IMG/VR virus record: IMGVR_UViG_3300043409_001212
Coordinates: 1 to 20,272 of that record
Reading direction: 5' to 3' (one strand)
Source: a virus
DNA length: 20,272 bases
Positions within the stretch are counted from its first letter, which is position 1; the number at the start of each line of letters is the position of its first letter. A program made the position numbers and the translations under genes. Positions 2,551 to 19,281 of the stretch are shown here, piece after piece. Below the pieces are notes generated by a model that was not told the origin of the DNA, searched no databases, and worked only from the letters and a program-made list of their open reading frames with translations.

Positions 2551-3135
2551 TCAACCCCAACGCCCGGCACCCATGCGGGCAGCCAGAAGCGGTGAATCGC
2601 CGAAGGTTTCCGGCGTTCCGTCTTGTCCGTCAACTGCACGGGCTTGCCTCAGCACATCCTTCAGCGCGGCCTCGACAAGCTGTTCCATGCTGGCCGATTT
2701 CGTGATGGGGTAGGCCAGCACCGCCTTCATGGAAACGGTGGCGCCCCACACCAGCATGTCGTCCCATGAACCCGTGTTCTCGTTGCGCCACACGTACCGC
2801 AACAGCGCCGGGTTCTCGTCGCAAAGCAGCTTGCCACTCTCGATGCTGAACTCAGCTTCAGCTCCTGCCTCGCCCACCGAAAGCGTGCGCAGGTAGTCCG
2901 ATGGCAGGGTGTACTGATAGGCCCAGTCAAACTCAGGCGCGGCGGTGTCGGGCGACAACACTACGCGCTTGATCGCGCAGTTCCACGGGTGCCGCCGAAG
3001 CACGTAATCGCGCACGGCAGGCCACAGGTTTGACGCCGCCCGTGCGCGGTCTGTTCCCTCGGTGAAAGCGTTGATGGGCTGCGCACCCAGCATCAGCAGG
3101 GCGTTCGAGCAAATGCTTACCGGTGTGGCCGCCAT
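2551..3135 (-). CDS. tail tubular protein A-like head-tail adaptor (T7 gp11-like)
   Basis: 194 aa from the ATG at 3135, which has an AAGGA ribosome-binding site about 9 bases upstream; T7 gp11 is 196 aa. An in-frame ATG at 3168 exists but lies inside a terminator hairpin, so the shorter form is preferred. The N-terminus (ICSNALLMLGAQPI, then a segment with RARAASNLWPAVRDYVLRRHPW) is the classic signature of the family: an N-terminal helical pair in which small residues are followed by R-D-x-x-L-R-x-H-P-W. The middle holds a W-x-Y-x-Y-x-L-P-S-D beta segment. The protein forms the dodecameric gatekeeper ring between portal and nozzle. It sits between capsid genes and the nozzle gene as in T7. 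Confidence 0.85.
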   Translation of the reverse strand: MAATPVSICSNALLMLGAQPINAFTEGTDRARAASNLWPAVRDYVLRRHPWNCAIKRVVLSPDTAAPEFDWAYQYTLPSDYLRTLSVGEAGAEAEFSIESGKLLCDENPALLRYVWRNENTGSWDDMLVWGATVSMKAVLAYPITKSASMEQLVEAALKDVLRQARAVDGQDGTPETFGDSPLLAARMGAGRWG

Positions 3136-3151
3136 GTCTGCTTCATCCTTC

Positions 3152-3179
3152 AAAGAAAAGGGGGGCACACTGGCCCCCC
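3152..3179 (-). terminator. Rho-independent terminator after the capsid genes
   Basis: On the minus strand a perfect 7-bp stem GGGGGGC / GCCCCCC (3179-3173 and 3166-3160) with loop CAGTGT is followed directly by TTTTCTTT. It lies 34 bases after the stop of the 233-aa capsid-module gene and just before the gp11-like gene. This is the same place as T-phi in T7, between gene 10 and gene 11, where partial termination keeps capsid mRNA in excess over tail mRNA. That functional parallel is inference. Readthrough must occur for the tail genes unless they have their own promoter, which I do not see. Confidence 0.85.
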
Positions 3180-3213
3180 GTTGAACTCAGCCCCAAGGGT
3201 GGGCGCTGCGTCA

Positions 3214-3915
3214 TCAGTCCTGCACGTAGAACGCCTTGAGCGTGATCACCTGGTTGGCAGGTGCAGCAGCGCCAGCGATCACCGACATCAGCGTGGCATC
3301 GTCCGTCGTGCTGTTGAAGGCGTTCGAAACGCTGTTGCTGTCGTCGTTCACCTCGTACCCGTCACCGGTGGCCGTGATCGTCTGGTTGCCGGTGGCCGTT
3401 GCCGGTGCCGACAAGGTGACGAGTGTGCCGACACCGATGCCGTTGGTTGCCGTCACGAAGGTGCCCGCCGTGATGCCGGTGCCTGAAACCAGGTTGCCGG
3501 TACGGTAAGCGCCAGGTGACGCCACCACAACCGCCACGTTTGAGCCAGCAGTCAGCGCCAAGGTGCCGACGTTCACCTGCTCCGAGGCCGTTGGGCTGGC
3601 CGCGCCCGCCGTGGTGATGGAAGTGGCGGCCATGTGGCGTGCGGGGTTCACGTTGTCGCCCAGGTTCATCGTGCTGGATGCGGCGCCAGTCGTCCAGATC
3701 ACCCGCGAAAGGTGGCCAAGAAGCACAGCGCGCAGCGGCAGCTTCCCCCACACGATCTTGTCCGCCACCAACAGCGTGGCAGCGGGCGAGATGATGCTGG
3801 CTTCCAGCACGCGCAAGCGCCCGCCCAGTTTGGTAGTGCGCACACGGGTGGCGGGCGCCAGGCCAGTGGCCGGGCCGTTGATCGTGTTTTGAGTGTCTGC
3901 GTAATAGGTAGGCAT
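3214..3915 (-). CDS. beta-rich capsid-module accessory protein, candidate decoration protein
   Basis: 233 aa, starting MPTYYADTQNTING with an AAGGA-type site upstream, 28 bases after the capsid gene. The first ~95 residues look like a small virion protein of phage capsid modules. The stretch around residues 140-190 contains SGTGITAGTFVTATNGIGVG followed by VTLSAPATATGNQTI, a pattern seen in Ig-like or decoration-type phage domains. No enzyme motif is visible. Its place directly after the major capsid gene, before the terminator, suggests a product needed in capsid-like amounts, such as a decoration or head-stabilising protein. I do not recognise a named family, so the role is inferred from context only. 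Confidence 0.72.
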   Translation of the reverse strand: MPTYYADTQNTINGPATGLAPATRVRTTKLGGRLRVLEASIISPAATLLVADKIVWGKLPLRAVLLGHLSRVIWTTGAASSTMNLGDNVNPARHMAATSITTAGAASPTASEQVNVGTLALTAGSNVAVVVASPGAYRTGNLVSGTGITAGTFVTATNGIGVGTLVTLSAPATATGNQTITATGDGYEVNDDSNSVSNAFNSTTDDATLMSVIAGAAAPANQVITLKAFYVQD

Positions 3916-3943
3916 GTCGTTTGTCCTTCAGTTGTTTGGTCGA

Positions 3944-4837
3944 TCAGGCGCAGGCAATCTCGACCACACCCTCGTCCTCGATTCGGGTGGCGCCAAGGCT
4001 CATGTCGCAAAACACCTGCCATGCGTTGTTCTTGTCCGGGCGACGATCAACAGAAGTGCTGATCTCTTGGCCAATGCCAAGGGCCACGCAATTGCGAGAG
4101 AACGCAATGGCATAGCCAGTCGTCGCCACACCGTCTCTCGCCAGGCGCTCACTGCGCACGAACTTGAAGCCCAGGAAGGTGTCGATCTGTCCTTGCGCCA
4201 GCGCCTTGATGGTGTTGAAGTCCACCGACTTGATTTCAGTCGTGCCATAAAGGTTGGTGAGCATCTTGGAGTTCACCACCATAACGCGGACTGCTGCACC
4301 GTTTGGCGTCTGGCCGTCCGTGGCCATACTGGCGTCGTCGTCAACCTCGTTCGCGTCCAGGATTTCCTTCGTCGCCAGCAGCTTGGCAAGCGTCAAGTTC
4401 GAGCCGCCCACCGCAATTTTTTGCGTTGACGGCAGAACCGAAAGGCCTGCATTGGTGCGAGACGTGCCGCGTGCTGCCGCAAGAATGATGTCGTCAATTT
4501 GACGGTTCATCGCCGAGGTTGCAAGAACCGAGTAACCATTGACAGGATCAGCCAGCAGGCGAACCTTGTCCATCTTGTCGATCAGCTCAGCCCAGCCCTT
4601 GTCCTGCAAGTCGATCCAGCGGCGCGAATGCGGCACCTCGACGAACTTGGTGTCAGCGTGGCGGCTGGTGATGTCGTAGGCTTCAGCGCGGCCCAAGCGT
4701 TCCACGCTCTTGGACTGGCCGACGATGCCGCTTTCCAGCTGGCACCACGGGCGCAGGCGGGCCTGCTTCTGCTGAAAAAGGATTCGGTAGTTGTTCGCGT
4801 ACTGAACAACCATGCTTTCAGGGATTTGGAAACTCAT
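3944..4837 (-). CDS. major capsid protein
   Basis: 297 aa, with a GGAG site about 8 bases before the ATG. The sequence has the layout of a podovirus coat protein: an N-terminal arm (MSFQIPESMVVQYANNYRIL), an early segment with ADTKFVEVPHSRRWIDL followed by IDKMDKVRLLADPVNGY (long helix region), a central LPSTQKIAVGGSNLTLAKLL helix entry, and a C-terminal part with VVNSKMLTNLYGTTEIKSVD, FLGFKFVRSERL and a final DEGVVEIACA. This pattern of an alpha-rich spine helix, then a domain ending in IRxD/EGV-type strands, matches HK97-fold coat proteins (T7 gp10A is 345 aa). The upstream gene is the scaffold, as expected. The identification is firm; the exact capsid family is not settled by eye. Confidence 0.9.
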   Translation of the reverse strand: MSFQIPESMVVQYANNYRILFQQKQARLRPWCQLESGIVGQSKSVERLGRAEAYDITSRHADTKFVEVPHSRRWIDLQDKGWAELIDKMDKVRLLADPVNGYSVLATSAMNRQIDDIILAAARGTSRTNAGLSVLPSTQKIAVGGSNLTLAKLLATKEILDANEVDDDASMATDGQTPNGAAVRVMVVNSKMLTNLYGTTEIKSVDFNTIKALAQGQIDTFLGFKFVRSERLARDGVATTGYAIAFSRNCVALGIGQEISTSVDRRPDKNNAWQVFCDMSLGATRIEDEGVVEIACA

Positions 4838-5019
4838 TGGATTCTCCGAAGTTGAACGATGTGTTCGCCTGCGGGTTGTCCTTTCCAGGGCCCTGATACG
4901 TCACGAGGAACCGGCTGCCGCTTTCGTGACGGGCTGTGCCGGTTGTCCACTTGCCAAGGCGGGCCGGTTGGATGCCATGGTGTGCGCACCACCGTGGCGG
5001 AATCCAGCCAGCCCAAGCA
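4838..5019. other. 182-base gap between scaffold and capsid genes
   Basis: Unlike nearly all other junctions in the window this one is long. It holds the capsid ribosome-binding site near its left end, a 19-base sequence repeated at 12652, and a possible 39-codon reading frame coupled to the scaffold stop. I see no terminator and no convincing promoter. Confidence 0.6.
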
Positions 5020-5020
5020 T
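4901..5020 (-). CDS. possible 39-aa ORF coupled to the scaffold gene
   Basis: A frame starts with ATG overlapping the scaffold stop codon (TGATG) and runs MLGLAGFRHGGAHTMASNRP to a TGA at 4903-4901. The last part is small-residue-rich (Ala, Pro, Ser, Gly). The only support is the stop-start overlap, which resembles real junctions elsewhere in the window. Two other minus-strand frames are also open here, so composition does not decide between them. The N-terminal codons are made of the 19-base repeat. It may well be untranslated. Confidence 0.25.
   Translation of the reverse strand: MLGLAGFRHGGAHTMASNRPALASGQPAQPVTKAAAGSS
4992..5010 (-). repeat. 19-base dispersed repeat, copy A
   Basis: Minus-strand TGGCTGGATTCCGCCACGG, identical to the copy at 12652-12670. 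It contains a short imperfect hairpin (TGGC/GCCA around TGGATTCC). The sequences on either side differ between the copies. Both copies lie shortly after a stop codon in a non-coding or weakly coding spacer. Confidence 0.7.
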
Positions 5021-6003
5021 CAGCCCGTCTTGAAGCTGTGTGTCTTGCCTTGCGTGACAGTCTTGTTGCCAGCAATCTGTTGGGTCAGCGCCGTCACTTT
5101 GGCCATGGTCGCCGTGTGCTGCGGGTCGTTGCCATTGAGGTATGAAGGTGAATTCATCAGCGTTTCCAGGCTGTCCTGAATTTGCGCCTGTGCCTCAGGC
5201 GATGCTGACATGTCTTCCTGCATTTCCCTGCCAATGCTGGCCAGGCCGCGAATCAGCCGCGCGTCGTTGCCGTAGTCCTTGACGATGCCCTCAAAGTCTT
5301 TGCCGAAGATGCTTTGCCCGGCGTGCCAAGCGCGGCCCACCTGGGCCTTGTATTCGCCATCGCTTTTCCAGCCTTCAGCCTGCCGAAGATCGGCCTCACA
5401 CGATGCCTGATCCAGCACCGGCCCGGCCTCCTTCAGCGCCAGCGAACGCTCCAAGAAATCAGCCGTCACCACGTCGAACTGCTTTTGCGTTAGACCCACG
5501 CCATGGGCCTTGGCCATGAAGTCCTTGAAACCAGAATTCGACGCCAACTCTTCGGCCTTGATCTTCTCGCCAAGTGCCTCGGGCACGTTCACCTTGTAGC
5601 TGGTGGCGTCAGCCGGTGGCGCATCACCGCCGCCGAAGCGCTTCTCAAGGTGGCCATACGCCTCGGAAACCTTCAGCGCGGTGGCCGCGTGGTCGGTTTC
5701 ACCCGACGCCGTTTTGACGATGAACTTTTCCGGGACGTTGACAACCCCGCCAGCGGCAGCACCGGCAGCCGCAGCAACTGCCCCTGCACCGCCATCTGCA
5801 CCGCCCGCTGCAGGCGCACCGGCAGCCAGGGCGGAACCAGCGCCGCCACCGTTGCCAGATGCCGCAGCGTTGTCGCTGCCTGCGCCTGCCGCACCAGTGC
5901 CGCCACCGTCTGCTGTGCCGCCCGTTTCTTCGCCGCCGCCTGCGCCCGCCGCGCCGCCAACGCCTGCCGAATCATGGAGAACATGAAACCTCCGTTTGAG
6001 CAT
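5020..6003 (-). CDS. capsid assembly scaffolding protein (T7 gp9-like)
   Basis: 327 aa from the ATG at 6003, which has GAGG 8 bases upstream; a GTG at 6012 would add three residues. T7 gp9 is 307 aa. After a basic N-terminus (MLKRRFHVLHDSAG) comes an extreme Gly/Ala-rich tract to about residue 90, then VPEKFIVKTASGETDHA leading into KVSEAYGHLEKRFG, a segment typical of phage scaffold proteins. The rest is mostly charged helix ending in a basic tail (TVTQGKTHSFKTG). It should direct procapsid assembly and be released before maturation. It lies immediately upstream of the capsid gene. The Gly/Ala tract is longer than I expect for the family. A strong GGAGG (complement of 5989-5993) inside the gene precedes an ATG in another frame. 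Confidence 0.85.
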   Translation of the reverse strand: MLKRRFHVLHDSAGVGGAAGAGGGEETGGTADGGGTGAAGAGSDNAAASGNGGGAGSALAAGAPAAGGADGGAGAVAAAAGAAAGGVVNVPEKFIVKTASGETDHAATALKVSEAYGHLEKRFGGGDAPPADATSYKVNVPEALGEKIKAEELASNSGFKDFMAKAHGVGLTQKQFDVVTADFLERSLALKEAGPVLDQASCEADLRQAEGWKSDGEYKAQVGRAWHAGQSIFGKDFEGIVKDYGNDARLIRGLASIGREMQEDMSASPEAQAQIQDSLETLMNSPSYLNGNDPQHTATMAKVTALTQQIAGNKTVTQGKTHSFKTG

Positions 6004-6036: not shown

Positions 6037-6285
6037 TCAAGCGGCCGGTTGAGAATCGTCATCGGGTGATGGCACATCGTTGGCGCGGTTCACCTGGCCG
6101 ACGATGAAGTCGAGCACGGCGCGGCGGCCAAGGTTGAAATCAGTTTGGCGCCGCCCTTCCTCGCCACCCTTCACGAACAGCGCCCCGCCGAAACGTGAGA
6201 TCAGATCATCAAGAATCTGCGCGCCCTCGTGGTGGCCTTCGAACACGCGGGCATAGGCCGCTGCATCGGGGCGTTGCTTGTTCAT
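6037..6285 (-). CDS. Bbp19-like small phage protein
   Basis: 82 aa starting MNKQRPDAAAYARVFEGHHE. The layout YxRVF-x5-G-x-x-I-L-x-D-L followed by a second half with GRRxVLDFI is the pattern of the Bbp19 family from Bordetella phage BPP-1. That family is found just before scaffold and capsid genes in many podoviruses. Its function is unknown; a small structural or assembly role is usually assumed. It starts 11 bases after the stop of the lyase-like gene. The acidic, proline-containing tail (VPSPDDDSQPAA) is probably disordered. Confidence 0.75.
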   Translation of the reverse strand: MNKQRPDAAAYARVFEGHHEGAQILDDLISRFGGALFVKGGEEGRRQTDFNLGRRAVLDFIVGQVNRANDVPSPDDDSQPAA

Positions 6286-6296
6286 CAATCCGGCCG

Positions 6297-9074
6297 TCAC
6301 CCTGTCACCGTCAGTGCGTTGGTGGTCAGGTTGAGCGACACCGTGCAGGTGCGCCCGCCGTAGGTGGCAGACCAAGTGAACACGCCGCCGGACACACTGG
6401 CCACCTCGCCGCTGACGCGGTTGCTGCCCATCTCCAGCCGCATGGGGGCCACCACGCCGGTGCTGGCCGCCCACTGCACGTAGTTGTGCCAGTAGGCGTG
6501 ATTGGCGTCTGCCAGCGTGCCATCGGGCGATTCAGGATAGGCTGAGTTCAGAATGGCGTTGGCTGGCGGCGCCGTGCCAGATGGCCAGGCGCTGTCGGTG
6601 ATGAGCTGCGCGGTGGGCGCCACGATGCCACTGCCTGCAATGGGCGTGAGCACTGCGCCAGCCACGGCGTCCACCGTGCGCGTGGCGCTTGTGCTGGTGA
6701 CGCCGAAGAGGTTGATGGGGCTGCCTACCCCTGCGCTGCTGGGCGCGGCTGGGGTATGGAAGCACCACTCGAACGTGTAGCTGGTGCCCCAGGCTGCGCG
6801 GTCAACAATCAGCAGCAAGCCGGGTGAAAACCAAAGCAAGGTGCGAACTGCTGCGGTGTGGACGTATGACGCTTTGCGGTACGCCTTGGACAAATCAAGC
6901 TGCAAGTAGCCCGAGTGTTCGCCTTCGAAACTGCGCAGGGGAATGCTGCGGTTTTGCGAGCCGGTGTTTGCGCCGTCCACCTGCGTGCCCAGTAGGCCAT
7001 TGAGCGCCCAGCAGTTGTGCGAGCGGCTGCTGTTGGCCCAATTCGTTTTGTGTTGGTCGGTGATGCCGACTGACCCCGGCAAGCTGTATGCCGCGATGAG
7101 CAAGCGGCGGCCATTGGCCGCAGCCTGGAACCCCCCCGCCCCGCCATTGCCGTGGTTCCAGCGGCCACGGCGGCGGACGTTGACCAAGACGCTGGGGGCA
7201 TCGGGGTTGTAGGGGTCACTGGTGGCAGACCAAACGGTTTCCAGCGCGTCTGTCCACAGGCGCTTGTGAGCGGGTGCGGTGTGCACTGTGCCGGTGTCAA
7301 CGTTGGGCACGTTGAGGTGGACGAATGGCCAGTTCGGATCGCTGTCGAGCGCATTGATGTTCCAGCCTTGAGATTGCAGGATGGCTGGCAGATAAGGGCT
7401 GGCTGTTTTTGATGCAATGGTGACGGCAAACTGGGGGCTTGGCACCGCGTAGTGGTCATCACCATCTGCCAGGCGCGGGCCGGAGCTTTTGCGCATTTGG
7501 AACGCCGCCAATTCGGCGGCTTTTTGCCACCGCGGCTGTGTCCAGAATGCGTCGCTGATGCCCAGCGCGTTGACGAGGAAATCAATGCCAGGGGAGAAGT
7601 AGCCCATGAAGCCGTGGTAGGCCGCGCCTTCCCAGTTGCCGCCCATGTCGGTGTTGCTGGCGTAGTGCCGGTGCAGCAGCACAGAGGCCGCAGCACAGAA
7701 CACCGGCAGGTTGGCCGCCAGGCCAAAGTGGCTGGCGGTGAACTCGGCGGCAAGCCCGGCTTGCGATGCTGCGCCCGCGCACAGCACAGCCATCCATTCG
7801 TGGATGTGCCCAAGAAAATCACCCCGATCCCACGGGCCGCGGCCCATGTAGCTGTTGGCGAACGCCTGCACCCACAGGGGCACCCCCCACGAGGCGTAGC
7901 CAGAGGGCTCCAGCGTCATGCTGAGCATGTAGCCCAGGTGGTCTCGGTAGGCGTCCTTGTCGGCCTGGGTGAGGCTGCCCCAGAAAGCGCAGGTGCCATA
8001 GAACAAGGCGATGAGCTTGAAGCGGCCTGGATCATCGCTAAGGTGGCTGAGCGAGGTGCAGCGGGTCATCGAGGCGGTATAGGTGCCGTTGGTGACGCCC
8101 ACAGGCACGGGGAAGGTGCCCACCGTGGTGGATGACATCGTCAAAACACGGCCGCTGCTGTTTAAGGTGGCGTTGCTGGCGCCTTCAATCGCCACATTGG
8201 TGGTGCTGCCCACCGCGTACCGGGTGGCGGCGGGGAAGGTGATTGTGGCGATGCCGTCACCGACGCCGGTGCTGCCGGTGACCACGATGTTGGTGGGGGC
8301 GTACTTGCCGGTGCTCCAGGCGAGCATGCTTCTCAGCCTGCGCAATCCTTCCGTTAGCGCCGAGGCGTTGGCGTCGGCAGCGTACAGCCAGGCGCACTTG
8401 AGAATTCGAGACGCTTCAAGTTGTGAGGCACCATTTTGGTCAGTTTGGCTGGCCAACGATGCGCCCACAAAAGAAGCCAGGCCGTTTTGACCCGTGGCCA
8501 TGGCGGTGTAGTGATCGCGCGAGTGGCCGCCAGCCTGGTAGTGCACCAGGCTGGCTGGGAAGCCGCGCTGGCCCACGGGGCGAGCAGCGAACGCAGAGAA
8601 CAGATCTGCGCGTTTTGGAATGTTGAGCGTGACGGCTTCGGCGCTGACTTCGAAATCGATCCAGCCGGACTGTGCGGCAGGCGTACCGGGGTAGTAAGTT
8701 TGGTCGGTGTAGCGCCACTGGTAGCGCACGCCCCGCGTCAAAGGCGTGGCAAGGGGGTGGGCCACTTCGTTGCGGCCTGGATCACTGGTGGCACTGAAAA
8801 GCACCCCACCACCGGAGAACAGGCGCACTTCCACCAGCCACACGGTGGCATCGTTGCCGCTGCTGCTGTAGGGCATGCGCTTGGTGAAGCGGTACAGCGG
8901 TTGGGTGACACCAATGACTTCGCCCCCCTTTGGGTAGAAAGTGGGGAGTGTCGATTCGGTGCCTGCGTCGTACAGCGCCCAGCCTTCGGCCGTGGGGTCA
9001 TCATTGGCCCAGGCCACCCATGGAAGGGATGCCGCCGCGCGGCCTGCGCCTGTTTTTGCAAGTGGCTTGGCCAT
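6297..9074 (-). CDS. heparinase II/III-like polysaccharide lyase, putative virion depolymerase
   Basis: 925 aa. Residues ~50-145 form a beta-sandwich-like N-terminal region (PLYRFTKRMPYSSSG, then W-L-V-E-V-R-L-F and RGVRYQWRYTD), like the FnIII-type entry domain of heparinase II/III and oligoalginate lyases. Residues ~155-560 are helical with conserved aromatics (HIHEWMAVLCAG, MGGNWEGAAYHGFMGYFSPG), fitting an alpha/alpha toroid. Residues ~635-770 match the HepII_III core: HGNGGAGGF, a Gly-anchored strand, SRSHNCWALNG (the sHNtvxvdG motif) and LLWFSPGLLLIVDR. A beta-type insert (about 262-336) interrupts the toroid. The expected HxHxD motif reads HGN, so activity is not certain. There is no signal peptide. 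It starts 3 bases after the fibre-like gene's stop. A role in cutting host exopolysaccharide is inferred. Confidence 0.68.
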   Translation of the reverse strand: MAKPLAKTGAGRAAASLPWVAWANDDPTAEGWALYDAGTESTLPTFYPKGGEVIGVTQPLYRFTKRMPYSSSGNDATVWLVEVRLFSGGGVLFSATSDPGRNEVAHPLATPLTRGVRYQWRYTDQTYYPGTPAAQSGWIDFEVSAEAVTLNIPKRADLFSAFAARPVGQRGFPASLVHYQAGGHSRDHYTAMATGQNGLASFVGASLASQTDQNGASQLEASRILKCAWLYAADANASALTEGLRRLRSMLAWSTGKYAPTNIVVTGSTGVGDGIATITFPAATRYAVGSTTNVAIEGASNATLNSSGRVLTMSSTTVGTFPVPVGVTNGTYTASMTRCTSLSHLSDDPGRFKLIALFYGTCAFWGSLTQADKDAYRDHLGYMLSMTLEPSGYASWGVPLWVQAFANSYMGRGPWDRGDFLGHIHEWMAVLCAGAASQAGLAAEFTASHFGLAANLPVFCAAASVLLHRHYASNTDMGGNWEGAAYHGFMGYFSPGIDFLVNALGISDAFWTQPRWQKAAELAAFQMRKSSGPRLADGDDHYAVPSPQFAVTIASKTASPYLPAILQSQGWNINALDSDPNWPFVHLNVPNVDTGTVHTAPAHKRLWTDALETVWSATSDPYNPDAPSVLVNVRRRGRWNHGNGGAGGFQAAANGRRLLIAAYSLPGSVGITDQHKTNWANSSRSHNCWALNGLLGTQVDGANTGSQNRSIPLRSFEGEHSGYLQLDLSKAYRKASYVHTAAVRTLLWFSPGLLLIVDRAAWGTSYTFEWCFHTPAAPSSAGVGSPINLFGVTSTSATRTVDAVAGAVLTPIAGSGIVAPTAQLITDSAWPSGTAPPANAILNSAYPESPDGTLADANHAYWHNYVQWAASTGVVAPMRLEMGSNRVSGEVASVSGGVFTWSATYGGRTCTVSLNLTTNALTVTG

Positions 9075-9077
9075 GGC

Positions 9078-9713
9078 TTATTCGAGGAAGACGTGGCACT
9101 GACGGCAAACGACCGTCTCGTTCACGGCGCCAGCCGCTTCCAAGCACACCGCCATGGTGATGGCGGCAGTGAGGTCAAGCGCAGCACTCAAGGTGGTGTC
9201 TGAACCGGAATTGGTGACCGGCTCTTGGGTTGAGCGCAAGCGGCCTGCCGCGCCAACAGTGTCGACAAACACCTCACCCACAGACCGAGCGGCCAAGGCC
9301 GCCGCGTTGAGCTGGGCCAAGAAGAGCACGGCGCCCGCAGCATTGCCCAGGCGCAGGGTTAGCTGCTTGAAAAGCGTTGTGCCCCCGGTGTTTGCGATGT
9401 TGTAGTGAATGCGAAGGCGCCGGTTTAGGCTGTTCATGTCGCCCGCAGCGAACACCAGCGTGCCGATTTGCTGCGCTGCGCCGCTGGCCGTGAAGTTGGC
9501 GCTTCCGGTGATGTTGCCGAAGTCTTTGGCTCCAACAACCAACGGGTCGAGCACCCAACTGGCGCCGCCCCCGGAAACGATGATGTCGCCCTTGTCGCCA
9601 TCGGTCACACCAGCACCGCCAGCGCTGCCTTGGTACTTTGCGCTTCCCGTCATCACCCAGCCACCCGCGCCCAGGGTGGCCAGGTCGGATGTCACGCTGT
9701 TTGAGTCTGCCAT
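9078..9713 (-). CDS. fibre-type virion protein with GDKGD motif
   Basis: 211 aa. The N-terminal third is Gly/Ser/Ala-rich and contains GVTDGDKGDIIVSGGGASWV (residues ~35-54), a motif common in phage tail fibres and spikes where a short turn joins beta repeats. The remainder is beta-rich (NITGSANFTASGAAQQIGTL, LRIHYNIANTGGTTLFKQL) and ends CRQCHVFLE, resembling the globular tip domains of phage fibre proteins. It lies between portal and the lyase-like gene, with 3 bases to the latter, so the two probably work together at the particle surface: an anchor or receptor-binding component plus a lyase. No catalytic motif is seen. Assignment as a fibre rests on composition and the motif. Confidence 0.6.
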   Translation of the reverse strand: MADSNSVTSDLATLGAGGWVMTGSAKYQGSAGGAGVTDGDKGDIIVSGGGASWVLDPLVVGAKDFGNITGSANFTASGAAQQIGTLVFAAGDMNSLNRRLRIHYNIANTGGTTLFKQLTLRLGNAAGAVLFLAQLNAAALAARSVGEVFVDTVGAAGRLRSTQEPVTNSGSDTTLSAALDLTAAITMAVCLEAAGAVNETVVCRQCHVFLE

Positions 9714-9723
9714 ATCGCTTCCC

Positions 9724-11346
9724 TCAGGCGGCCTTCACCGTGCGCTGCAAAGCAGCATCGGCGGCCATGGTTTGCATTTCGTGTTTCTTGGCCTCTTGCG
9801 CGGCCTCTTCCTGCTGCTGCGCCTTGGCCTCTCTGAACGCGGCCAATTGATCGGCATCACGCAGCAGGCGCATCGGTGCACCAACACCGTCCACCATCAC
9901 ATCCACCGCCGCATCGAAGTCCACCTTGTCAAGCGCTGCAAGTGCCGAGGGCGCGAACTGCCCCAGGTTCGCAAGCCCGGCCAAGTTGGCGGTCAGCCGT
10001 TCAACGGCGGCCACGTCTTCAGCCTTCTGTGCGCGAGACAACGGGTTGTTGTATTTGACTTTCAAGCCTTGCCCGCCCAACGTCTCAGGTGCTTCGCCGA
10101 ACAGCCCGGCGCGGTAGGCCAGGCCGAAGCAGCGTTCAACCAGCGGCGCCAAGTATTCGGCTTGCAAGCGGCCATAGATCGGCCCCAACAACTGGCGGAT
10201 TAACCCAACGCGAACATGCACCTCGGTCGCCGTCATCGCTGGGCCATCCTGCGGCTGCAACTGGTCAGCCATCAGAATCTTTCTGATCGCTCCGGCATAC
10301 TGCTGAATGCGTGAATCGGCCAACTGCCAATCACCGCCAGCGCTCAGTTGTTTCATGCTGTCCACGCTGTTGGCCACGATCACCTTGCGAGGGCCAACCT
10401 TTACGGAACGAGGGTTCAGAACGCCGTCGTCTTCGGCGATCCACATGCCTGCGATGGCGAGCTCTGCATTCATCCGATCCATGCGCAGGAAAGTATTTAG
10501 CTCACGCGCATCGGGCAGCGCATCGAACATCGGCCCGATGGCGTAAACCGTGTCCGGTATCACTGACCACCTGGGCACGATCACCGGCATCTCGTGGTAG
10601 CCGCTTTCGCGCAGCAGCTTCTTCGTCTCCACCTCGAAATGGCACGATGCCACTGGCAGGTTCTTGGCCAGCTTCGCGCCCACCGCATAGGTGCTGCGTG
10701 GGTAGATCGCATGGCACAGCGAAACCGGTGCGTCGGGTTCCTTCTCGGCCTTTTTCGAAGTGTCCGCACTCACGGCATTGGCGCCGAACTCACGAACGCA
10801 CTGCTCAGCCGTCAGGCTGTACTCGCGCAGCACGGTGTCAACCGGGCCGCTTGCCTTGGTGGTTGCACAGAACACGCTGGAAATGGGCCACTGCTCAAAC
10901 GAGAACCCACCCGCTTCACGATCCACGTCAACGTAGAGCGCAAACCAGCCAGCAGCCACCAGATCAAGCGCGCACTCATAGGCTGCCGCGTCGAACGTGC
11001 CAGCATGAATCTCTTCGTGCAGTTGCTTGCCCTTCTCGTCCAGCCACCGCTTACCGCCATCGTCGGCGCCGGTCACCGTCAACAGCGCCCACACAGAACT
11101 TGAAGGCGTGGCGCCAGACACCACCGAAGCGGCCAATGTTCGCGCCGCATCCGTGGCCACGCTGTGCAGTAGTCTGGACTTGCGATCCATAGCCTGCTGC
11201 GCATCCATCGGATGGCCACCCGTCAGGCCGCTGCCACGAATCGGGAACGAATGATCGAAGCAATCACGCCAAACCGTCTCATGCGGTTGCCGTAGTTGCT
11301 TCAGCCGCATCAAGCGGCGATAGAGGGCTTCAACACTTGCGCTCAT
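9724..11346 (-). CDS. portal protein (T7 gp8-like head-tail connector)
   Basis: 540 aa, almost the length of T7 gp8 (536). The N-terminus (LYRRLMRLKQLRQPHETVWRD) and the following segment (RLLHSVATDAARTLAASVVS then TPSSSVWALL) are the standard opening of the podovirus connector family: R-x-x-x-E-x-x-W-R-D, then a Ser/Ala-rich helix with GxTP/S. Further on are DALPDARELNTFLRMDR, the mid-protein helix, GPAMTATEVHVRVG (the conserved P-x-T-A-T-E motif) and LLGPIYGRLQAEYLAPLVER, followed by a Gln/Glu/Ala-rich C-terminal coil. It forms the dodecameric ring for packaging and ejection. It starts two bases after the stop of the 136-aa gene. Identification is strong. Confidence 0.92.
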   Translation of the reverse strand: MSASVEALYRRLMRLKQLRQPHETVWRDCFDHSFPIRGSGLTGGHPMDAQQAMDRKSRLLHSVATDAARTLAASVVSGATPSSSVWALLTVTGADDGGKRWLDEKGKQLHEEIHAGTFDAAAYECALDLVAAGWFALYVDVDREAGGFSFEQWPISSVFCATTKASGPVDTVLREYSLTAEQCVREFGANAVSADTSKKAEKEPDAPVSLCHAIYPRSTYAVGAKLAKNLPVASCHFEVETKKLLRESGYHEMPVIVPRWSVIPDTVYAIGPMFDALPDARELNTFLRMDRMNAELAIAGMWIAEDDGVLNPRSVKVGPRKVIVANSVDSMKQLSAGGDWQLADSRIQQYAGAIRKILMADQLQPQDGPAMTATEVHVRVGLIRQLLGPIYGRLQAEYLAPLVERCFGLAYRAGLFGEAPETLGGQGLKVKYNNPLSRAQKAEDVAAVERLTANLAGLANLGQFAPSALAALDKVDFDAAVDVMVDGVGAPMRLLRDADQLAAFREAKAQQQEEAAQEAKKHEMQTMAADAALQRTVKAA

Positions 11347-16027: not shown

Positions 16028-16471
16028 ATGGCCGATGACGCCCGGATCAGAACCGAAAACCTGCGAGCACTTTGGGATGCGCGGGGCTTCACAGTCACGT
16101 CTGCGCCAAAGGTACTTGGTCGATCGGCAAGTTTTTGGTCTGATCTTCGCAAAGGCAACAAGTCGTTTGGGGAAAAGCTCGCGCGCGACATCGAAGAGCG
16201 GCTCCAACTGCCTCGCGGATGGCTTGATCAAGCGCACGACACAAACAATGGCCTTTCTACGTCGCCCGCTCCGCCGCCGCGCGATTTCGCTGACCCCCGG
16301 TTTGTGGACGATGAGGAATTCGAAATCGTGCGCGACTTCCGCGACCTGGCAGATGGTGACCGTGACCGCTTCAAGGCCAGCTTGAGGCAGATGGCCGATG
16401 CGTACCGGATCTACCGAGACGGCGTGATCTCCGATCTCAGGGCCAAGGGAAAACTGAAGGAGGAAACATGA
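16028..16471 (+). CDS. CI-type phage repressor, short form
   Basis: 147 aa from the ATG at 16028 (MADDARIRTENLRALWDARG); an ATG at 16013 would add five residues. The N-terminal ~65 residues form an HTH domain (SAPKVLGRSASFWSDLRKGN, then SFGEKLARDIEERLQLPRGW), a form common in repressors of beta-proteobacterial phages. After a Pro-rich linker comes a helical C-terminus (FEIVRDFRDLADGDRDRFKA). There is no S24/LexA-type peptidase domain, so RecA-stimulated self-cleavage is not expected. It is flanked by two promoters with matching palindromic operators and lies divergent from the Cro-like gene. A weak -10 (TTTACT, 16017-16022) just before the ATG may serve as its own promoter, as lambda PRM does. 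It is the first gene of a three-gene operon. Confidence 0.82.
   Translation: MADDARIRTENLRALWDARGFTVTSAPKVLGRSASFWSDLRKGNKSFGEKLARDIEERLQLPRGWLDQAHDTNNGLSTSPAPPPRDFADPRFVDDEEFEIVRDFRDLADGDRDRFKASLRQMADAYRIYRDGVISDLRAKGKLKEET
16457..16463 (+). promoter_or_regulatory. strong ribosome-binding site inside the repressor gene
   Basis: AAGGAGG, 4 bases before the ATG of the PEP-CTERM gene and inside the last codons of the repressor gene. Together with the ATGA overlap it indicates that the surface protein is meant to be translated efficiently from the lysogenic message. Confidence 0.8.
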
Positions 16472-17088
16472 AAGCAATCACCATCGCTATGGCCGCAATG
16501 CTGGCTGCAGGCGCCACCCATGGGACACTGCAAGACCGAGGCCCGCTGATGTTCTTTGATGACGTGGCCAACCTCACGTTCTACAAGGTAAGCGCAGCAG
16601 GTAGCGCATTCGATGACGGCTTCTCTGCCAGCGATGGCCTGGTGAGCTGGGCATCCGCTGGCGCCTGGGCTGCAAGCCTTGCCGTGACAAACACCTTCGG
16701 CGTGTCCAGCACCGGCTGGCGCCTTCCCGCCCAAACCGAGCCGACCTATGCCGCCACAGGCAGCGCCTTCGGCTGGTATGCCGATCTTTACGACCTGTCG
16801 TCCAACATCATCCCCACCGGTGGGAATTCGATCCTCACCGTGAATGGCTGGCTTGTCCGTGAGCCCACCCACGTATGGCCGCCATCGCTGGCCTGGACGT
16901 ATGGCAAGGGCTTCGGTGTAGCCGTCGCAGCGCTCACACTCACAGACGGCAACGTGTTCCACGACTATGGCCAGGCCTGGGCCGTGCACTCGGGCGACGT
17001 GGGCGCGGTTCCCGAGCCTGCCGCCATTTCGCTTGCGGGTGCGGGTGCTGCATTGCTTGGGCTTCTGGCGCTGCGTCGGCGCACTTGA
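16468..17088 (+). CDS. PEP-CTERM sorted surface protein (moron in rex position)
   Basis: 206 aa. Residues 1-19 are a signal peptide (MKAITIAMAAMLAAGATHG). The body opens TLQDRGPLMFFDDVANLTFY and has GLVSWASAGAWAASLAV and GWRLPAQTEP, the layout of DUF1566/Lcl-like PEP-CTERM proteins (DRGxGLIYDD..LNITW..W..A..WA..L..GWRLPT). The end is a full PEP-CTERM signal: VPEP at 181-184, a hydrophobic helix (~186-202) and RRR at 203-205. Known PEP-CTERM proteins are exported by Sec and processed at this signal by a host exosortase, often in strains making exopolysaccharide. The ATG overlaps the repressor stop (ATGA) with a strong AAGGAGG upstream, so it should be made in the lysogen. No exosortase is in the window. 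Surface alteration or superinfection exclusion is inferred. Confidence 0.88.
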   Translation: MKAITIAMAAMLAAGATHGTLQDRGPLMFFDDVANLTFYKVSAAGSAFDDGFSASDGLVSWASAGAWAASLAVTNTFGVSSTGWRLPAQTEPTYAATGSAFGWYADLYDLSSNIIPTGGNSILTVNGWLVREPTHVWPPSLAWTYGKGFGVAVAALTLTDGNVFHDYGQAWAVHSGDVGAVPEPAAISLAGAGAALLGLLALRRRT

Positions 17089-18200: not shown

Positions 18201-18394
18201 GCATCGCAGGCGTCAGTGATTCTGAGTGGGCCGACTACGAGGCCAGCAGCAAGCCAAACCCATTGCCAGGGGTGTCGGTGGTGCTGCTGCTGCAAAGCGG
18301 CGCGATTGAAGGGCCGTTTCGTGTGACGCAGCCGGTCACTGTATCAACGTGGCAGCGCATCAAGCGGGCTGTCAGAAACTGGAGCCTGAAGTGA
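18197..18394 (+). CDS. small early protein, function unknown
   Basis: 65 aa starting MSIAGVSDSEWADYEASSKP, coupled at both ends (ATGA before, GTGA after). The middle is a short beta-type segment (PGVSVVLLLQSGAIEGPFRV) and the end is basic and helical (WQRIKRAVRNWSLK), perhaps DNA- or membrane-binding. No family is recognised. It directly precedes the exonuclease gene and may be an accessory to recombination, but that is only position. Confidence 0.6.
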   Translation: MSIAGVSDSEWADYEASSKPNPLPGVSVVLLLQSGAIEGPFRVTQPVTVSTWQRIKRAVRNWSLK

Positions 18395-19281
18395 AAACAA
18401 TGATAGGCATTTTCGAAGGCATGCCGTTTGACGAGTACCTTGCGGTCGATGCTTTGAGCGCCACCGGCTTGAAACAGCTTGCGCGTTCTCCCTGGCACTA
18501 CAAGCACCGCATCGACACAGACCCAACGCCTGCGATGATGCGCGGCACCCTGGCCCACTGCGCGATTCTTGAGCCTGGCGCCTTTGCGCAGCGCTACGTG
18601 GTGCAGCCTGTTGACGCGCCTCGCAGGCCATCGAAGGCCCAATGGTCAGCAAAAAATCCGAGCGCTGAAAGCATCGCGGCGATGAAGTGGTGGGAAGCCT
18701 TCAACGATTCTCTTGCCGGGCGCGATGTTGTTTCAGCCGATGACTTCAGCTTGTGTGCACAGCAGCTGCAAGCCATTGCATCAAACACTGAACTGTCGGG
18801 GCTTTTGAAGCATGGGCGGGGTGAGGTTTCAATCTTCTGGATCGACAAAGCAACCGGCCTCTACTGCAAGGCCAGGCCGGATTGGCTGCCATCGCCTATT
18901 GGCAGCACGATCATGCCGGTGGACATCAAGACATGCATTGACGATTCACCCAGCGGCTTCGGCCGCGCTGCTGCCCGCCTGAGGTACGACTTGCAAGACG
19001 CGCACTACACGGCAGGCATTGAAGCCGTTACCGGCTTGCACGTTCAGGCGTTCGTTTTCGGTGCCGTCAGCAGCAAGCCCCCTGTTTTGGCTGTGCCCTA
19101 TGTGCTTACCGATGAGATCAGGGCGCAAGGCCGAGATGAGCGCCGCGAGCTGATTGACAAGTTGGCCTGGTGCCAGCGAGAGAACACCTGGCCAGCCTAC
19201 GGGCAAGGCTTCCAGATGCTGGATTTCCCAGCCTACGCCAAAGCTGGCGGAGATGTTGAAGTTGAATGGAGCGAATCATGA
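18391..19281 (+). CDS. RecE/exonuclease VIII-like phage nuclease
   Basis: 296 aa from the GTG at 18391 (GTGA overlap, GGAG site six bases upstream); ATG 18400 is the alternative. The N-terminus (DEYLAVDALSATGLKQLARS, PWHYKHR) is the standard start of exonuclease VIII-type PDDEXK proteins, where S-x-T-x-L-K is followed by S-P-x-H/Y. Catalytic features are present: GTLAH (H56), E145, ARPDWL (D164), VDIKTC (D178, K180) and the QxxxY motif of RecB-family nucleases (Q202, Y206). E. coli RecE is far longer because of an N-terminal extension; this is the nuclease domain alone, as in many phages. It would chew 5' ends to make 3' tails for annealing. An annealase should follow to the right. Confidence 0.87.
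   Translation: MKTMIGIFEGMPFDEYLAVDALSATGLKQLARSPWHYKHRIDTDPTPAMMRGTLAHCAILEPGAFAQRYVVQPVDAPRRPSKAQWSAKNPSAESIAAMKWWEAFNDSLAGRDVVSADDFSLCAQQLQAIASNTELSGLLKHGRGEVSIFWIDKATGLYCKARPDWLPSPIGSTIMPVDIKTCIDDSPSGFGRAAARLRYDLQDAHYTAGIEAVTGLHVQAFVFGAVSSKPPVLAVPYVLTDEIRAQGRDERRELIDKLAWCQRENTWPAYGQGFQMLDFPAYAKAGGDVEVEWSES

Follow-up and report, generated by a model that had tools for sequence, protein, structure and literature searches.

The window analyzed here is a 20,272-base virus record, IMGVR_UViG_3300043409_001212, positions 1 to 20,272. Its minus strand carries, in order, the portal gene, a 211-aa ORF, a 925-aa ORF, a Bbp19-like gene, a capsid-assembly-like gene, the major capsid protein gene, a 233-aa ORF, and the genes for two tail proteins, one gp11-like and the other large and nozzle-type. 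The match of the capsid-assembly gene to its T7-type family is weak (PF05396, E 0.012), and the major capsid protein is matched by PF19821 (E 2e-70). The original prediction placed two ORFs of 211 and 925 aa between the portal and the Bbp19-like gene, and its coordinates are exact:

9724 to 11346, minus strand: portal protein, flanking gene (PF12236, E 2e-99)
9078 to 9713, minus strand: 211-aa fibre-type protein, the putative adaptor (P0002; ORF and translation)
6297 to 9074, minus strand: 925-aa heparinase II/III-superfamily lyase-like protein (P0001; ORF and profile comparison)
6037 to 6285, minus strand: Bbp19-like protein, flanking gene (PF25181, 28.8 bits, above the cut-off; start read from the sequence)

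These genes are packed head to tail, with gaps of 10 nt between the portal gene and the 211-aa ORF, 3 nt between the two ORFs, and 11 nt between the 925-aa ORF and the Bbp19-like gene. The lyase-like gene sits in the structural-gene region beside a fibre-type protein, as expected of a tail depolymerase. We compared the junction in five relatives found via the portal (YeP5, Piluca, TPWB-05, APEC, and Baldr). In each of them, the Bbp19-like gene, as recognized by Pfam, directly follows the portal gene and is itself followed by the next head genes. Because the two genes are directly adjacent there, the 211-aa/925-aa pair is an extra at this junction as far as five relatives tell, which bears out the earlier view of a cassette inserted into the head-gene order. 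We discarded the notion of a module standing in for a tail fibre that normally lies between the gp11-like gene and the nozzle, since in Piluca and YeP5 the gene at that place is itself nozzle-like.

Searched by sequence, the 925-aa protein has no match in Pfam (PF07940 itself included), PHROG, NCBIfam, or PDB, none among 50,697 phage records at E 0.01, and none among 72,556 plasmids. We therefore turn to profile-profile comparison (hhalign), in which a two-row phage profile, made of P0001 and its relative from the locus L001 described below, was compared with heparinase II/III proteins from bacterial genomes. The profile matches a set centred on L059, a heparinase II homologue, with E 6.7e-6 and a set centred on L094 with E 3.7e-6, while reversed queries against the same two sets give E 0.3-0.8. 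L094 scores 1040 bits against the solved PL15 oligoalginate lyase Atu3025, of which it is an orthologue, and across 398 Pseudomonadota genomes it is the best match both for the phage profile (E 1.6e-7) and for P0001 alone (E 6.5e-6). When residues 260-340 are omitted, the alignment extends to 424 columns (E 4.3e-7). The profile score of 65.6 stands against a maximum of 27.2 in 150 column shuffles and 26.4 among 166 real phage ORFs, and the heparinase-like signal extends through a large part of the protein, exceeding chance by a wide margin in residues 600-790. With these profile matches in hand and both null sets below half the score, membership of the 925-aa protein in the heparinase II/III superfamily is secure at the level of sequence profiles, which also place it nearest the PL15 oligoalginate lyases.

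Heparinase II/III-like homology had been proposed in the original prediction, which named the 635-770 region as the place where it should exceed chance; that region lies within residues 600-790, where the signal is well above chance. The two motifs quoted in its support, SRSHNCWALNG and FSPGLLLIVDR, do align to strands of the family, but SRSHN reads RSASV in the relative, and stronger markers that had not been listed are H425, GGxxEGxxY486, and H641. Two groups of candidate matches were set aside. Matches to Rhizobium microvirus capsids (E 0.007) were judged to be chance, and faecal "Bacteriophage sp." records with heparinase-like ORFs are unannotated, the one opened being marked UNVERIFIED, and were not counted as phage examples.

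The alignment covers the regions of both a predicted toroid and a beta-sandwich, and the protein can be divided as follows:

8565 to 9074, minus strand: N-terminal beta domain, residues 1-170, resembling the small N-terminal PL15 domain (hhalign)
8055 to 8297, minus strand: segment of residues 260-340, which the bacterial family lacks, within the predicted helical region (its omission lengthens the profile match)
7275 to 8054, minus strand: second part of the predicted alpha/alpha toroid, residues 341-600, within the 225-703 match to PL15-type proteins
6705 to 7274, minus strand: Hepar_II_III_C-like beta-sandwich, residues 601-790 (hhalign)
6300 to 6704, minus strand: C-terminal extension, residues 791-925, strongly conserved (amino acid identity to the L001 relative)

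Taken alone in hhalign, residues 600-925 match the PL15 set with E 1.1e-6 and the heparinase II set with E 1.8e-6. Residues 1-170 match the PL15 set with E 1.7e-4 (prob 49) and give nothing significant against a broader set, and the toroid region by itself is likewise not significant. The AlphaFold models are too low in confidence to be used (pLDDT 36 for P0001 alone, 27 for P0001 with its one relative); in the 260-340 segment they place low-confidence strands.

Identity between the two phage proteins is 81-84% over residues 751-900 versus 49-67% before. Silent sites in 751-900 are about as diverged as elsewhere, so this region is under strong constraint, and recombination as the source of the conserved C-terminus was rejected on the same grounds, namely the divergence of its fourfold sites. 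The conservation suggests that the region may contact the adaptor or form oligomers. Across the last 175 residues (6297-6824), the proteins of the two unlike phages agree at about 80% of positions, and this piece is unmatched in annotated phages.

The profile alignment with the bacterial proteins also points to candidate active-site residues:

7800 to 7802, minus strand: codon of His425, equivalent to Atu3025 H311, proposed catalytic base (profile alignment)
7617 to 7619, minus strand: codon of Tyr486 in GGxxEGxxY, equivalent to Atu3025 Y365, proposed catalytic acid/base (profile alignment)
7152 to 7154, minus strand: codon of His641, equivalent to Atu3025 H531 (profile alignment)

All three are invariant in the nine bacterial members compared and in both phage proteins; together they supply the conserved Tyr and two His of the superfamily active site, and H425 and Y486 supply the His311 and Tyr365 (Atu3025 numbering) by which PL15 is recognized. 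In PL15, H311 of Atu3025 is the proposed base and Y365 the proposed acid, and a Tyr can do both (PMC11921355); this Tyr and the His of the third position, H531, are found across related lyase families (PMC11848413). These related families also carry a structural metal site in the beta domain (PMC11848413). The HxHxD stretch, present in 9/9 bacterial members, reads HGNGG in one phage protein and HGLGG in the other, and because of this replacement the structural metal is, judging from the residues, probably absent from the phage protein. At the position of PL15 Arg314, both phage proteins have Met428, and the Arg is also missing from five of the nine bacterial members; the Arg314-type residue, R229 in VBAly15A, neutralises the substrate carboxylate (PMC11921355). 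With the HxHxD residues and Arg314 missing, we do not file the 925-aa protein as a PL15 member, and it may still work in a PL15-like manner.

Set beside Atu3025 as a whole (PDB 3A0O/3AFL), the phage protein has the same order of N-terminal beta domain, helical toroid region, and beta-sandwich, and it keeps the positions of H311, Y365, and H531. It differs in that identity is about 20%, that H533, D535, and R314 are not kept, that it has the inserted segment 260-340 and the conserved C-terminal extension, and that it is encoded beside a fibre-type protein. The likeness to heparinase II (PL21, PDB 2FUT/3E80) consists of the beta-sandwich match via the L059-centred set (E 6.7e-6) and a segment of GH-x-H type ahead of the catalytic Tyr, which L059 has as well, whereas zinc-site-type residues are not kept and identity is very low.

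The changes at the HxHxD residues and the Arg314 position in both phage proteins, together with the fact that conservation peaks in the C-terminal extension and not in the catalytic part, would suit a protein that has kept the lyase scaffold, lost catalysis, and become a non-enzymatic polysaccharide-binding (receptor-binding) virion protein. We consider this unlikely, since both proteins retain all three catalytic residues despite an overall identity of 62%, and the Arg is dispensed with in five of the nine bacterial members as well. Our preferred reading of the 925-aa protein thus remains that of an active, divergent lyase.

The only close relative of the 925-aa protein is a full-length protein of 62% identity on IMG/VR contig 3300005069_000007 (L001). 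Scans of IMG/VR and of bacterial-genome contigs, including one for a GGNWE...YHG-type DNA pattern, gave no further close relative, and 17 genome matches to that pattern showed no homology. The L001 phage, like the phage studied here, is a podovirus, but its portal is of P22 type and its large terminase subunit of the Terminase_3 family, and the two are otherwise unrelated. Its lyase-like gene is likewise preceded by a gene for a putative adaptor, in this case of 262 aa, and comparison of the two divides the 211-aa protein:

9543 to 9713, minus strand: N-terminal part of the putative adaptor, residues 1-57, proposed virion attachment; contains GDKGD and is unmatched in the L001 adaptor
9585 to 9599, minus strand: GDKGD motif, residues 39-43 (sequence)
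9081 to 9542, minus strand: C-terminal domain of the putative adaptor, residues 58-211, which co-travels with the lyase-like gene (52% identity to L001)

The C-terminal 154 aa match the L001 262-aa protein with 52% identity over 157 aa (E 1e-49) and have no match in annotated phages. The GDKGD stretch, already seen in the original prediction, is real and occurs again in 32 IMG/VR loci, always as this short segment without the rest of the adaptor. In place of it, the L001 adaptor has in its N-terminal part a different 42-aa segment that is also found, at 74% identity, on a neighbouring 665-aa protein, and this matches what an exchanged attachment part predicts. Over the stretches compared, what the two loci have in common is the whole lyase-like protein and, of the adaptor, no more than residues from about 58 to 211. 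Because nothing beyond this C-terminal domain and the lyase-like gene is shared, the pair, as read from the two sequences, travels as a module whose N-terminal part is exchanged, in good agreement with the transferable module that had been proposed.

In L001, the ORFs at 3076-5073 and 8658-10076 flank the lyase pair and contain, by eye, SGNH-esterase-like motifs (GNS..., FEND, DGIH; GDS...), a reading that Pfam and PDB sequence searches do not support; such proteins might deacetylate the polysaccharide cut by the lyase.

In the enzyme itself we recognise no domain for virion attachment, as would be the case if it were an active lyase outside the virion, either a soluble enzyme freed at lysis or cargo that digests polysaccharide for the host population, with its head-operon site owed to insertion chance. 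Co-inheritance with a fibre-type protein, the N-terminal part of which is swapped from one phage to the next, and the 3-11 nt packing within the head operon, argue against this explanation, to which we give slightly less weight than to a loss of catalysis. It is very improbable that the protein looks heparinase-like by chance and is some unrelated structural protein of the phage: the silence of Pfam, PHROG, NCBIfam, and PDB and the unusable structure models speak for it, but the score is more than twice the best of the shuffles and of the real phage ORFs, and independent superfamily sets agree where reversed controls are silent.

We favour, with moderate confidence, the interpretation of the pair as a transferable tail-depolymerase module, composed of an attachment adaptor and a divergent, PL15-nearest lyase that would act on an acidic host exopolysaccharide by beta-elimination; for this module we infer the fold, catalysis, substrate, virion location, and contact between adaptor and enzyme. 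The N-terminal part of the adaptor would attach to the virion and be replaced as the module moves into another phage, its C-terminal domain would travel with the enzyme, and the adaptor would thereby hold the 925-aa protein on the virion. The lyase is predicted to begin with a beta domain, followed by an alpha/alpha toroid, which the inserted segment interrupts, and a beta-sandwich. With His425 and/or His641 assisting, Tyr486 would take the C5 proton from a uronic acid, and the glycosidic bond would then be broken by beta-elimination, opening the exopolysaccharide for infection. More tentatively, we put forward the full combination: a two-protein system whose transferable lyase, of heparinase II/III type but without the metal-site residues of that family, rides on the virion by way of a small adaptor, and only the N-terminal part of this adaptor is exchanged between unrelated phages.

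The module would do the work of the beta-helix tailspike depolymerases of podoviruses, namely to open the capsule or exopolysaccharide of the host, and it differs from them in its predicted fold and in having the attachment part and the enzyme as two separate proteins. The original prediction called the lyase fold unusual. Toroids are indeed rare among phage depolymerases, but they have been reported: DepoScope found alpha/alpha toroids in 11/984 phage depolymerase candidates (PMC11326577), and for this reason a toroid phage depolymerase is rare, not new. The 925-aa protein would belong to the same broad fold class as those phage proteins, a likeness by fold class and not member by member, and it differs from them in being unmatched among the annotated phages of the collection searched. 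A virome survey lists PL15, PL17, and PL12 among read-level CAZyme hits (PMC9602057). Our searches of the open-licence literature turned up no tail protein described as PL15 or heparinase II/III-like, which is no proof of absence. A heparinase II/III-type enzyme is a very rare choice for a phage that probably needs to cut the sugar coat of its host. These results point to a depolymerase lineage missed by the annotation libraries tried, and the modular layout of an exchangeable adaptor and a separate enzyme is directly testable. Should the enzyme be active, acidic exopolysaccharides would have a phage lyase that does not belong to the beta-helix class.

Two further genes in the window deserve mention. 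A 206-aa protein (16468-17088, plus strand) carries a C-terminal PEP-CTERM sorting motif (PF07589, 22.6 bits vs a cut-off of 20.7); it also weakly matches the FxDxF and floc-associated PEP-CTERM families and has no match among the 50,697 phage records. PEP-CTERM systems are associated with exosortase and exopolysaccharide formation. An exosortase-sorted protein is unexpected in a phage and hints at an exosortase-bearing, exopolysaccharide-forming proteobacterial host, which is compatible with the depolymerase model and is no test of it. A PDDEXK-like protein (18349-19281, plus strand; DUF3799, E 4.9e-21) resembles the C-terminal part of exodeoxyribonuclease VIII and is probably a member of a phage recombination module.
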